A DNA stretch of 34,000 nt, from assembly GCA_013820875.1 (NCBI GenBank), contig JACDHS010000052.1:1-34000 (forward strand). Direction: 5' to 3'. Source of the DNA: Verrucomicrobiota bacterium (GTDB taxonomy: Bacteria > Verrucomicrobiota > Verrucomicrobiia > Limisphaerales > JACDHS01). The stretch's first letter is position 1; each line of letters opens with the position of its first letter. This document shows, in pieces, positions 8,651-33,799 of the stretch. Made by a program: the position numbers and the translations under genes. The notes under the pieces are model-generated. The model searched no databases and was not told the DNA's origin. It was given only the letters and a program-made list of their open reading frames with translations.

Positions 8651-8712
8651 TGTGTTCGACATCCTGAAAGGTTTGCTGTTTTCGTTGAGATTGGGTTACT
8701 CTCCGATTTGCT

Positions 8713-11700
8713 ATGCAGATGTGTCGTTTTGTTTTTGCGTTTTACTTTGCCTTTCTTTCTGCCAGCGCACTGCGAGCTCAATCCGCTGACGGTATTCTGC
8801 GGATGCGGTTTCAGGACAGCCAGACCGGCTATGCCATCCAACCGAGCGTGGCAATTAGCGGCCTCAAGGATGGCAAGATTTTGCCTGTGCCGATTGACGC
8901 CAGTGGACGCGCTCATATCTTATTGCCTGAAGGCGATTACACGATCGCCATCACGTCTGACAGTCATCAATCGTTCGCGTCTGCTGTAGCGATCAAAGCT
9001 TCAACTCCACCACTGCAATTCTCTTTGGATCCGCTTCTCAGGCCGGCGCCATTGAATCCTGAAAACATCGTTCCATTACGCCGTCCAGATGCGACTGTCT
9101 TTGTCGGATATGTTGTCAATGAAGAGAGCGGGCAACCGATCGAGAATCTTAACGTGTTTTCCGAACCGAGCGGAATCGAGACTTTGACGGACGCTTATGG
9201 TTTTTTTCGAATTTATGTTCCTCTCCAAAGCGACGCAGAGTGGCGATCACTTCCGGCGAAGCTGCTGTTTGCAAAAGACGGTTTTGTCACCGAAGAACAT
9301 CAGAGCCTGCAGGTCGGGTCAAACAGCGATTGGATTTTGCGCATTCAAATGGCTTCTGGCAGCGGGACGAACGTATTGAATCAAGGGGGCAAACGAATCA
9401 AATTCGGTCCATTCCCAAAAGGTGATTCACTGGAGATGCAAAACAAAGAAATTCCAGTAGCGAGTGCAGCCGGCGGAGACGGTCCGACCATTCGGATTCC
9501 CACGAACATCCGCGTATTGATGACAAATGGAACCATCGAATACGTCTCGATGGAGACTTACACCGCGAGGTCTGTTTCCCATGAATGGTTTTCCAGTTGG
9601 GGTAATTACAGTGGAGGAATGAACTCGTTGAAAGCGGGCACTGTCGCGGTGCGTTCCTATGCGGCCTGGTATGTGAATAGCGCGACCAGTGAAAGCGACT
9701 ATGACATTTGCGCTACTACTTCGTGCCAGGTTTATCGGACTACCTCTTCATCGAATGGCAATGCTGCTACCAGTCAAACGACTGGTTACGTGATTGTGGG
9801 ATCCAACAATACCATTTCCCGCAGTGAATATTCCGCTGAGAACAATTCCGCCGGATTCTCTTGTGGAGACGGGTTTACCCAGCCGACTGGCGGATGCATC
9901 GCCGACCCGGTATGCAGCGGCGAGACGCGATTTGGTCACGGTCGTGGAATGTGCCAATGGGGAACTTTCAAATGGGCCACTGGCTTGAAGGTATCCGGCA
10001 ATGGAAGCAGCTATCCGTCTAATGCCAACAGCGGAATCACGAATGGCCAACCGAAACAGGATTGGATCTGGATTGTGAATCATTACTACCCGAATCTCAG
10101 GCTGATCCAGGCAATGCCGTTGGTGATCGGTGATGCCGTCAAAATCGTTGGGGCTTCATCAAGGGATGTGCGCATGTGCGGCGATGGCGGCATCAGTAGC
10201 GGAGTAAATTGTACGTTCATCGCAACGAAAGCAGTTGGATCAACCGGTGCAATCACCATCGGACCGGTGCGCGTCACGTCGGATGGCGAAGGTTTCACCT
10301 GGTGGAAAGTTTCCTGGAGCGACGGTCAAATTGGCTGGATCCCCGAAAACTGGCTTGAGCGAGTGATCCCACTGCCACCTGCTCCGACCAATTTACATGC
10401 GTTTGCCATTGCTACCAACCAGGTGAACCTGACTTGGAGCGTGGATGCGAGTGACAAGCTGGGTTACAGAATTCAACGCCGGCCCAATCCCACTGCAACC
10501 TGGGTGCAAATCGACGATATTCCCGTCGGCGTGACAAGCTACAGTGATACAACCGCCCAGCCGTCAACCACCAACTATTACCGCATCCGCGCTTACAATT
10601 TGGGTGGCAATTCTTCCTTCTCCAACACAACCAATGCGATCACCCCGGGGATCCCCCCGACATTGGCCTCCATTTCAAATCGCACCGTAGCCGAAGAGGC
10701 GAATCTGACCTTCACAGCAATTGCAACTGCGCCTGATTTCATCACGCTGCTAGCAGATTTTGAAAATTATTCGGACGGTGATGCCGTCATGTTTCGTAAT
10801 CCGATTCATTCAGGAAGCACCAGTGCCCATATTGGCGCCGGGAGCAGTTCCGCAGTGTCAGCCTCCTTTCCGACAAGTGCCGGAACCGGAACTCGTGTCC
10901 TTAAAGCGAGTTGGAGTTTCAACACTGGCACCAGTAATCCCTGGCTTCGCCTGACTACAAGTGCCGCGGCCAATCTGCCAAACCCGGTAATCGATTTCAC
11001 AAAAAAGCTTCGCTTCGACGTTCGCACCGACAAAACATTAAAGGTGGCTCTTGGTTGCCGCGAAACGACAAATGCAGTGGGCACTGCAATCGGTTCCGAT
11101 GGCGGTTCCTTGGGCGCGATTGAATTTGTGGGTGTTAATACCGGTACGCAGCCGAATCCTATTCGAACGGTTGTGTCGAATACCTGGACAACGCTGACAT
11201 TCGATATGCCTGACGAACCGGTAAGAAGCTTCTCGGGAGGGAACCATGTTCTCTCCACCGCATCCGGTTTGGGTGTGTTGGAACATCTTGCGTTTGTTCC
11301 AAATGGCGGGTTGGGTGATTACAATGTTTACCTCGACAACTTCGTTGTGGCTCAATCGAAAATCCTCACATTCAGTCTTGATCCGGGGGCTCCGGCTGGT
11401 GCGACCATCCACCCGTCGAGCGGCGTTTTCTCGTGGACACCCACTGAAGCCCAGGGCCCGGGAAGTTATCCGATAACTGTTCGGGTGACTGACAACGCAG
11501 CTCCGGCGCTAAGTGATTCGAAAACGTTTACTGTCACGGTGACAGAAGTGAACACCGCACCAGTATTGGCTGTTATTGCCAACCTCACCGTTCATGCCGG
11601 GAATAGCATCGTATTCACTAACTTTGCTTCGGATGCGGATATTCCGGCAAACACATTGAGCTTCAGTCTCGATCCGGGAGCCCCGCTCGGCTCGGGGATT

Positions 11701-18063: not shown

Positions 18064-18244
18064 GGGGGAAAATTGCAAAAAACGGATTTTTGACTCCCAA
18101 CACACTGTGCTGAAGCTCAAAAAGCCTTTTTGCGTCTTCCGCAAGGTGCGTGTTTTGCGGGCAGGTGCGAAAGCTTCATCCGCGCAAATTGTCGAAAAAT
18201 AAGGGGTTTTTCACTTTGGGGCGCCAGAAACGTGGCCTGGAGAG

Positions 18245-18552
18245 TCTCAAGGCCACTTTGATATCAAATCAAAACCGTCTGGATGGTCTCAAGGCCACTT
18301 GAATATCAAATCAAAACCGTCTGGACGGTCTCAAGGCCACTTGAATATCAAATCAAAACCGCCTGGATGGTCTCAAGGCCACTTAAATATCAAATCGAAA
18401 CCGCCTGGATGGTCTCAAGGCCACTTAAATATCAAATCGAAACCGCCCGGATGGTCTCAAGGCCACTTGAATATCATATCGAAACCGCCTGGATGGTCTC
18501 AAGGTCACTTGAATATCATATCAAAACCGCCTGGACGGTCTCAAGGCCACTT
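18245..18552. repeat. 42-bp tandem repeat (minisatellite), 7.3 copies
   Basis: Copies start at 18245, 18287, 18329, 18371, 18413, 18455, 18497 and a partial at 18539, an exact 42-base period with no indels. Each begins tctcaaggccactt and contains atatcaaatc or atatcatatc and aaaccg. There are no spacers, so it is not CRISPR. In one frame (SQGHLNIKSKPPGW per unit) several of the differences are silent, but no start codon with a ribosome binding site precedes it. Confidence 0.92.
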
Positions 18553-31183: not shown

Positions 31184-31286
31184 GGCTAACGAGCTGATCG
31201 ATGATGAGGAGCGCGCCAAGAAAATACCAATTGAAACAAAGATGCGACCGCGCTCCTCATCATTCGATCCAGCGATTGGTTAGAAC
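31184..31286 (-). other. Integron attC-like recombination site
   Basis: On the minus strand the order is GTTCTAAC (R''), a spacer, ctggatcgaatgatgagg (L'' side), a ~40-base loop, ctcctcatcatcgatcag (L' side), ctc and GTTAGCC (R'). The arms pair over about 25 bp, with two unpaired extra bases only on the R'' side and unpaired spacers next to the R boxes, the architecture of attC sites. Folded length is ~103 bases, within the known range. R' departs from GTTRRRY at one position. Confidence 0.72.
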
Positions 31287-31682
31287 CGGTCATTATTGAG
31301 GCTGGTCTGTCCTGTTCGCTGCTCTCGATGTCTCTGCGACCAGATCCCAAAAGTTGGTTACGGCGTCTCCTTCGTGCCAAATATTGAATTCTCGCTGGAA
31401 CCTCTCGCATGCATGAACTACCTCGTTCGTACGCCCTGCAATCGACAACTTCTTAAGGTCGGCGACAAAGTCAGGTAGGCCTCCTCTAACGTAATGGTCC
31501 TGGACCTCGTGATAAGTGGAGACTTTCGTGGACCGAGAGACTGACAAACAACAAAGCACGACAAAAACAGTAAGTGAGCAAAGTCGCCATACAGGACGAG
31601 CCATGATCTGCACCGCGATAAAGCCAGCGAATACAATCACTATCAACAAGATGTAAAAAAGGAGGGTGCCCATGGGTTCTAA
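31190..31682 (-). mobile_element. Putative integron gene cassette (one ORF plus attC)
   Basis: The cassette would start after the G of GTTAGAAC (31683-31676, minus strand), two bases before the ORF's ATG, and end at the G of the attC R' box. The R'' box of its attC (GTTCTAAC) is the exact complement of the GTTAGAAC at its start, as expected when one circular cassette has been opened at its own site. The ORF stop lies 6 bases from the attC. No integrase gene is in the window. Confidence 0.65.
31293..31673 (-). CDS. Hypothetical cassette-borne membrane protein
   Basis: The product has 126 residues. An N-terminal hydrophobic region has two likely helices (LLFYILLIVIVFAGFIAVQI and LCSLTVFVVLCCLSV). 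A soluble, helical C-terminal part follows (LPDFVADLKKLSIAGRTNEV and on). No family was recognised, which is usual for integron cassette genes. Minus-strand AGGAGG-like sequence is not apparent before ATG 31673, because the presumed recombination site occupies the leader. It is convergent with nothing and is read in the same direction as the lipoprotein gene. Confidence 0.6.
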   Translation of the reverse strand: MGTLLFYILLIVIVFAGFIAVQIMARPVWRLCSLTVFVVLCCLSVSRSTKVSTYHEVQDHYVRGGLPDFVADLKKLSIAGRTNEVVHACERFQREFNIWHEGDAVTNFWDLVAETSRAANRTDQPQ

Positions 31683-31824
31683 CCATTTGATTCACATTTC
31701 ATTTGGCGCTGATAAGTGATGTTTGATCTGTTTTGCTGGCAACCATTCTGGTGGGTGTCATTGCGAAAAGTTTGAAGGGTGCCGACCGAAAGTCAACGCC
31801 GCCATCGCAGTCTGCCCCGTACGG

Positions 31825-32013
31825 GTGTGATTTTAAGTGGTGGGGATGGCAAACGGAGCGCGGTGTGCGAAGCATCAGCCGCAGCGCGTGAGATTGTTCG
31901 AGCGTCATAGAAAACCCTGCCGCGCGACGTTCCACCCTTGAGCGCTGCGGCTGATCCTACGGACACAGCCGCGCTCCGTTTCCTACGCCAATCTCACCCG
32001 CTTTTAATCACAC
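31825..32013. repeat. Long imperfect inverted repeat, MITE-like
   Basis: The left arm runs from gtgtgattttaagtgg through aaacggagcgcggtgtgcga to atcagccgcagcgc. The right arm is its imperfect complement, running from gcgctgcggctgat through gccgcgctccgttt to cttttaatcacac. Arms are about 65-70 bases, the centre about 55. No ORF in it looks like a transposase. Confidence 0.8.
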
Positions 32014-32278: not shown

Positions 32279-32470
32279 TTTGACGATATCAGAGGATGCC
32301 TGCGGACGTTATTCCTGCCATTTGACGGCGTCGGGAGGGGCTCGGAAAGGTTATTTCCCGCGTTTGACGGGCTCGGAGGGGGCTTGAGAACGTTATTCCT
32401 GGGGTTTGACGGAATCGGGTGGGGTTAACAACGTTATTCCTCGCGTTTGACGAGATCGGGAGGGAGTTGA
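32279..32470. repeat. Degenerate 42-bp tandem repeat, about 5 copies
   Basis: The word tttgac occurs at 32279, 32321, 32363, 32405 and 32446 (periods 42, 42, 42, 41). It is followed by a tcggga/tcggag G-rich stretch and preceded by gttattcct-like sequence. It is not obviously coding. Confidence 0.8.
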
Positions 32471-32578
32471 GAACGTGCGGGACCGCAAAGCGGCAAATCG
32501 ACTCTACAGTTCTGTTTTTCTAGCCCGCCGAGTTCATGGAGGCAACACACCAATCGGTGCGTGTCGGATGCTCGAACA

Positions 32579-32809: not shown

Positions 32810-33799
32810 ATGGAGTTAAACGAGCGACGAAAACAGAACTTTAATCAGTTTGGAATCGATATTATGAGACAGAATATACCGGTTAGTCAGGGTGGATTGC
32901 TCGGCAGGATGAACGTTGCGATCAAAGCGGCGGATAGCCACAGCGCCACAGTGGTGTTGGCGCATAACTCGGCGGTGACAATGAGCCTGGCTCGAGCAGC
33001 AGCAGTTTTGGCGCGGGACGCTCGGGAATTGGGCAAGGATGAATTGCGCAAGCTGCGGGAACTGTTGGAGACGGAACGAATCGCAACGCGTGAATTTGCG
33101 TTGCTGGGCCGGGATCAATTGAAACCGGCGCTCGGACGGTTGTATCATCCGGGCTGGGATGTGACCGGGTTTCGCGGTGGGTTCCGGGTTTCGGAACGCG
33201 CCAGTGACCTGGAGGTGTGGGCGGAAACTTTTCATAATTACCTCGTTCAGAATCCTGGCAGGGAAGTTCCTGCGCATAACATCACGGCTGCCCAGGCAGC
33301 GGAACGATACAATGCACTTAAGACTGCGCGGACCGCTGTGAAAGCGCAGGAGGGCGCGTTGAGAACCCTGGTGCAGCAGAGTGACGCGGCGTTTGCTCTC
33401 TTGCTTAAGATGCTGCGGGGGTTGGTGAAGGAGTTATCGTTGACTTTAACTCTCGACGATGGACGTTGGACAGCGTTCGGATTCAACGCACCAGCGGCAA
33501 AGGAACGTCCGGAAACGCCGACGAATGTCACGGCGGTTTCGGTGACAGAGAATGCTATGGCTGTGCAGTGGGACAAAGCGCCGCGCGCGGAGTATTATCG
33601 GGTGCGCATCAAGGTGGTGGGCGTGGATGAAGAACCAAAAGTGGTGGGCACACCGTCGGATACGGATTTTATGTTTGAAGAGTTGCCAGCGGATGCGGTG
33701 GTGGAAGTGACGATTTCCGCGGTGAACAAGGGTGGGGAGAGTGCGCTGAGTGAGGTGGTGATGGTGAGGACGGGGGAGGAAATAGACAATCGGCAATAG
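32810..33799 (+). CDS. Fibronectin type III domain protein, paralogue of the left-edge gene
   Basis: ATG 32810 gives 329 residues; ATG 32864 (MRQNIPVSQGGLLGRMNVAI) is an equally likely start. The N-terminal ~220 residues are helical and charged (SLARAAAVLARDARELGKDE; ARTAVKAQEGALRTLVQQSD). The C-terminal FN3-like domain starts near RPETPTNVTAVSVTENAMAV and ends GESALSEVVMVRTGEE. There is no signal peptide or membrane segment. It aligns along most of its length with the protein at 3-845, best in the FN3 part, where the DNA is also very similar. The function is unknown; the helical part could form a coiled assembly. Confidence 0.82.
   Translation: MELNERRKQNFNQFGIDIMRQNIPVSQGGLLGRMNVAIKAADSHSATVVLAHNSAVTMSLARAAAVLARDARELGKDELRKLRELLETERIATREFALLGRDQLKPALGRLYHPGWDVTGFRGGFRVSERASDLEVWAETFHNYLVQNPGREVPAHNITAAQAAERYNALKTARTAVKAQEGALRTLVQQSDAAFALLLKMLRGLVKELSLTLTLDDGRWTAFGFNAPAAKERPETPTNVTAVSVTENAMAVQWDKAPRAEYYRVRIKVVGVDEEPKVVGTPSDTDFMFEELPADAVVEVTISAVNKGGESALSEVVMVRTGEEIDNRQ

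Follow-up and report, generated by a model that had tools for sequence, protein, structure and literature searches.

Introduction

The usual picture of an integron has a single integrase, a single attI and a single array. The locus examined here raises the question of how a complete-looking gene cassette comes to lie in bacterial DNA with no integrase gene beside it. The stretch analysed, referred to as the window, is 34 kb long and is the whole of contig C61 in a draft Verrucomicrobiota genome (5.70 Mb in 239 contigs, 98.99% complete, 2.2% contamination). A first-pass annotation had described the locus as a remnant or cluster of attC sites lacking an integrase; we asked what the cassette, its edges and the rest of the genome say about that description.

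Results

The cassette and its attC site

The features of the locus are collected in Table 1. The leading site, GTTAGAACC, stands two bases ahead of the ATG of the cassette ORF, as the first-pass annotation had it, and this sequence is present exactly twice in the 34-kb window (about 0.26 occurrences expected by chance), the second occurrence being its complement in the R'' box. The exact complementarity claimed earlier between R'' and the cassette's own leading site, which is of the TTRRRY type, holds at all nine bases. A single compact ORF lies between the leading site and attC and reads towards attC. Its product matched no family at its cut-off in a protein family search, and no homologue was found in 196 genomes of the same order. 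The attC fold does follow the stop codon, at a distance of 7 nt and not the 6 given before, which is near enough. Just past R', where a lipoprotein gene had been annotated, the lipoprotein-like ORF starts after four bases. It has no attC of its own, and the covariance model described below (R1) detects no second attC in the window; this ORF could be the last cassette of the array, without an attC, or the first gene beyond it. Just one marginal broken match to it was obtained among the 196 same-order genomes, where homologues of both ORFs were sought to locate the empty site and none was usable. Relatives with both genes around a non-folding spacer would have spoken against an attC; neither gene has a convincing relative in these genomes.

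Table 1. Features of the cassette locus, in window coordinates
Feature	Position	Strand	Basis or remark
Complete integron cassette	31683-31184	minus	leading site GTTAGAACC + 126-aa ORF + attC
Leading site GTTAGAACC	31683-31675	minus	9/9 complementary to R'' region
Cassette ORF, 126 aa, orphan, N-terminal hydrophobic segments	31673-31293	minus	ORF list
attC, 102 bases	31285-31184	minus	folding, model R1, genome copies, covariation
R'' TTCTAAC	31285-31279	minus	7 nt past ORF stop
L'' GCTGGATCGAATGATGAGGAGCGCG, 25 nt	31273-31249	minus	
L' GCTGATCGATGATGAGGAGCGCG, 23 nt	31215-31193	minus	
R' GTTAGCC	31190-31184	minus	
Lipoprotein-like ORF, 139 aa	30760-31179	minus	ORF list
Candidate diverged attI-like site, crossover G/TT at 31683/31682	31681-31798	minus	sequence only

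The hairpin has R'' and R' boxes whose five core bases pair, paired L'' and L' arms, and a loop of 33 nt between the arms. L'' is longer than the reverse complement of L' by two extrahelical bases, namely a G and one of two adjacent As, so that the unpaired bases do lie on one arm only, as had been noticed. Folded as single-stranded DNA, the site gives z = -5.0 (minus strand) and -5.3 (plus strand), with none of 200 shuffles as good, and a rule-based scan for attC architecture scores it 19, as compared to at most 10 in six shuffled windows. An Rfam scan of the window returned nothing at gathering thresholds. We built our own covariance model, R1, from 20 attC sites of other sequence families (alignment A3), some of which lie beside intact intI genes in same-order relatives; the sequence family of the window was left out and other sites of the window genome were included, which makes the model independent at the level of the sequence family and not of the genome. 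R1 matches the window attC across all 93 positions (27.7 bits, E 1.3e-6), a covariance-model hit whose absence would have counted against an attC, and the next match in the window (E 0.22) is a collapsed palindrome. In alignment A3, 92% of cells pair and the covariation score is 0.399, versus 0.128 for shuffled and at most 0.070 for slid alignments. In the alignment of the window's own attC family (A2, drawn from its own and relative genomes), 95.7% of stem cells pair, with compensatory changes that alter four pairs on both sides. The common attC layout consists of R'', ~5 spacer bases, ~4 pairs, an extrahelical base, 5-6 pairs, a second extrahelical base and the inner stem. Sites beside a complete intI in same-order relatives have a layout identical to that of the window attC; in one such relative (G042, locus L073) a complete intI at 8686-9633 is accompanied by attC sites at 10187, 10948 and 11435. 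Every feature of a cassette that can be tested from sequence is thus present, and by this measure 31683-31184 is a genuine integron gene cassette.

attC sites and cassettes across the genome

The proposed search of the genome for further attC sites and an integrase was carried out, and it returned ~70-90 attC sites on ~31 contigs and intI fragments only. R1 reports 79 sites at E<=1, of which 70 fall below E 0.001; together with the architecture rule it yields 91 candidates on 31 contigs, the weakest few of which may be false. The largest array, on contig C220, has 11 sites, and other contigs carry 2-11. Among the 74 cassettes that could be delimited, the median length is 543 bases, the longest ORF is on the cassette strand in all but two (72/74), and the median ORF start is 19 bases past GTT. 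The leading seven bases are the complement of the cassette's own R'' box in 39 of the 74; on average 5.88 of 7 bases match, versus 4.84 +/- 0.09 for shuffled pairs. One cassette of C220 is also found on C69 (98.8% identity over 333 bases), which indicates cassette movement or copying that is not very old. As a separate observation, the ORFs of three C220 cassettes (locus L052: 34822-34164, 34170-33530 and 33536-33140) and of one on C68 (31631-30920) extend into the attC of the same cassette and terminate in a nearly identical tail (..AAPNGGPA..GGPPSVS or similar); in these cassettes the attC supplies the C-terminus of the protein and its stop codon.

The body of the window attC is repeated in eight close copies (85-95% identity), which lie on eight other contigs, and this genome has many hairpin repeats; both observations are compatible with the hairpin being a terminator, or a palindromic repeat of the dispersed REP or MITE-like type, that resembles attC. 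In these copies, however, the body is constant and the R boxes vary, with R'' tending to match the leading site of its own cassette; arrays consist of alternating hairpins and ORFs, the latter all in one orientation, several attC sequence families have common extrahelical positions and covariation, and attI and truncated intI are found at the heads of arrays. The repeat or terminator reading is contradicted by the array and R-box structure and was rejected; we accord it practically no probability.

attI-like heads and integrase fragments

Two assembled intI-linked heads are identical from intI to ...CTGATAATCAATGGTT and then lead into different cassettes (GTTGGGC and GTTCGCC). Since they diverge exactly after GGTT, they define attI for this genome. 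We searched the genome stretches examined for segments of 62-75 bases that end in GTT and resemble the attI so defined. Nearly all matches share the strand of an array and precede its first attC by 0.25-0.9 kb. In total there are about 20 attI-like sites: 16 clear heads, one on C181, a weaker one on C9 (~23.5 kb), one on C21 and one in the window. Most stand at the head of a cassette array, and intI is either absent beside them or present there as a fragment only. Sites of the main type have ~150 bases in common, with the core ...CCTGTGAATCATATGGTT, and a TTGACTT motif is located ~110-130 bases before the junction. The flanks beyond this block differ among subgroups, and the block has no clear mobile-element ends. 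Minisatellites with 41-42-base periods are found behind the attI copies on C220, C69, C156 and C20, and the window has minisatellites of 41-42-bp period at 32306-32476 and 18235-18552.

The assembly of this genome contains no complete integron integrase, with the proviso that an intI could be absent from a draft of 239 contigs. The best match to TIGR02249 in the genome reaches only 84 bits, and we take the genes matching at that level to be XerC and XerD. An HMM derived from order-level relatives finds no intI in the window, and finds N-terminal intI pieces on C69, C220 and C56; C29 holds a further, weak N-terminal piece (E 0.0016), and C237 a C-terminal one. The pieces on C220 and C69 are divergent and adjoin the first cassette, and an intI divergent beside the first cassette is the usual integron layout. 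In this genome the integrase gene seems to have been lost. As only pieces of it are left, the array should be static today.

The arrays might instead be pieces of one large chromosomal integron whose intact intI was left unassembled. Many of the arrays are indeed found at the ends of contigs, and assemblies break at attC sites that resemble one another (PMC9024848). Yet a single array with a single attI could not account for about 20 attI heads, six of these heads (on C9, C20, C69, C220, C237 and C21) are located at least 10 kb inside contigs, which argues that they are not one array split by assembly, and the intI pieces on C220 and C69 are truncated inside contigs and followed by identical downstream sequence. 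Fragmentation is therefore a very improbable explanation.

The 5' edge of the window cassette

The 118 bases that precede the cassette junction (31798-31681, ...ATGTGAATCAAATGGTT) recur on C21 at 93% identity, and the identity stops at GGTT. On C21 the flank leads into GTTCGGTAAAG, a 209-aa ORF that encodes a DUF5076 domain, an attC (L123:5170-5277; 27.3 bits, E 6e-6 with R1) and a second ORF, with GTTAGAAATC before that ORF and TTTCTAAC after it. Two copies of the flank thus adjoin two different cassettes at the same point. Both flanks also align with the other attI sites over ~63 bases, up to the exact junction. When 15,865 GTT positions were scored for resemblance to attI, the window site scored 38 and the C21 site 49, and the best sites not already counted as heads reached 30 (the weaker C9 head and one other) and 27. 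Compared with a single reference attI alone, with random 90-mers as the null, the window site gives only p = 0.003.

The neighbourhood contains other repeated DNA. Window positions 31851-31981 belong to a high-copy repeat that has inverted arms and is dispersed in dozens of copies through the genome. Paralogous proteins are encoded at 32810-33799 and 60-845 of the window, on C21 (L123:2846-3829) and on C130 (L124), two of them with an fn3 domain, and C21 and C130 both have a duplicate of the segment upstream of the copy at 32810.

The alternative to an attI is an off-target insertion, in which an IntI encoded elsewhere placed the cassette in an ordinary GTT-type attG and the resemblance to attI is accidental. 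A search for intI remnants behind the window site found none, the window flank has diverged from the other attI copies, and the duplication of the neighbouring fn3 gene segment on C21 means that the common flank could be copied chromosome; each of these points would suit an attG. The alignment with other attI sites to the exact junction, a score above that of every background GTT position and the two different cassettes held at the same point by two flank copies speak against it, and we regard off-target insertion as unlikely. We conclude that the 5' flank is probably a diverged attI, with a chromosomal attG retained as the rival. With its 5' edge as one of about 20 attI-like copies and not plain chromosome, the locus is better described as an attI-headed array than as stray attC sites; the first-pass reading of a cassette with an attC and no integrase is supported, and what it had not recognised is the nature of this 5' edge.

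Related genomes

Among 58 sampled genomes of the order, 19 have an intI above the curated cut-off and 42 have attC sites by R1. A genome of the same family (G001) has attI-like sites without intI beside them on two contigs (C655 and C110). In G012 such heads are found on C574, C111 and C446, and the sole full intI is alone on C120. This solo full-length integrase (L132, G012:C120:2238-3515) has an unusual C-terminus (..TTQIYLRTARQTGVGIHSPLDE), and no attC was found within the surrounding 9 kb. G045 carries a complete intI on C183; its attI-headed arrays, on C107 and C214, have no intI match. G037, G047 and G054 were searched for the common attI heads, and none turned up. The pattern of the window attC family was found in 13 stretches from records labelled Verrucomicrobia, Verrucomicrobiales or Pedosphaera and in one labelled Deltaproteobacteria; a search of viral contigs found none. 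The last of these records (L105, JACRBZ010000073.1) is a MAG titled Deltaproteobacteria, and its window-family attC possibly reflects cassette transfer between phyla or a binning error.

Discussion

The window very probably holds a cassette (leading site TTAGAACC, ORF and attC) directly behind a diverged attI, as one of this genome's integron platforms without an integrase. The best reading of the array is an integrase-less, attI-headed one, in other words a CALIN whose attI was retained or copied. Of the parts of a complete integron, an attI at the array head is represented by the diverged attI-like site, and an intI adjacent to it is missing, with none in the window and fragments in the assembly. 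At some past time, an IntI would have recombined the folded single-stranded attC of a circular cassette with the G/TT of the attI-like site, and the empty site at the C61 and C21 loci is predicted to have read AAATGGTTAGCC. Such an insertion would make R'' the complement of the site that leads its own cassette, and R' (GTTAGCC) would derive half from attC and half from the adjoining downstream DNA. The array would now be frozen unless an integrase were supplied in trans, and any expression of it may come from an attI-linked promoter.

More tentatively, the attI platforms may multiply and scatter without intI in a distributed integron, in which one intI elsewhere, where it survives, serves all of them in trans. 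The arrangements in G045 and G012, with intI on one contig and attI-headed arrays on others, fit this proposal, which we consider possible though somewhat doubtful; under it, the integrase of the window genome would have been lost since.

CALINs are a recognised class whose proposed origins are off-target insertion, intI loss and rearrangement (PMC9024848, PMC8618304). The default of IntegronFinder 2, at least two clustered attC sites without intI, is a software threshold, and a single attC can be a true positive (PMC9024848); the window has one attC and so falls below it. Like the CALINs described in PMC9024848, the locus has attC-bearing cassettes with no intI beside them, but an attI-like site heads its array, and its genome has about 20 heads of this type at scattered places. 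In Xanthomonas, arrays persist after inactivation of intI and CALINs are present at several loci (PMC12444791). The window genome resembles this case in having sedentary arrays that outlast intI and CALINs at several chromosomal loci; it differs in having many dispersed attI-headed platforms, whereas in Xanthomonas intI, where kept, is at one locus (ilvD), and that account does not report CALINs elsewhere with their own attI (PMC12444791). Cassettes inserted at attG are likewise isolated, outside the main integron and joined at a GTT-type crossover, but the left junction in the window resembles the genome's attI over ~63 bases (such cassettes are described in PMC12901181 and PMC12444791). Delta-attI-type cassettes of class 1 and 2 integrons also have attI away from its usual place next to intI; in these, according to PMC12901181, short attI remnants replace attC at the cassette 3' end, whereas the window genome has ~150-bp attI blocks at the 5' head of arrays. 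Integrons from Verrucomicrobiota have already been recorded (PMC8618304).

The window site itself is of a known kind, and the novelty is the genome-level arrangement of many dispersed attI platforms. We know of no description of this variant, and a literature search covering few subscription papers found no account of a single genome with many integrase-less arrays headed by attI. To our knowledge, detection tools model attI only for mobile classes, and if the reading is true they would miss such arrays. Some CALINs would then be attI-headed and not stray attC clusters, and about 20 attI-headed arrays without an integrase would show attI platforms to be capable of spreading independently of intI. 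This genome would offer a concrete system in which to study how attI is copied and whether IntI acts in trans.
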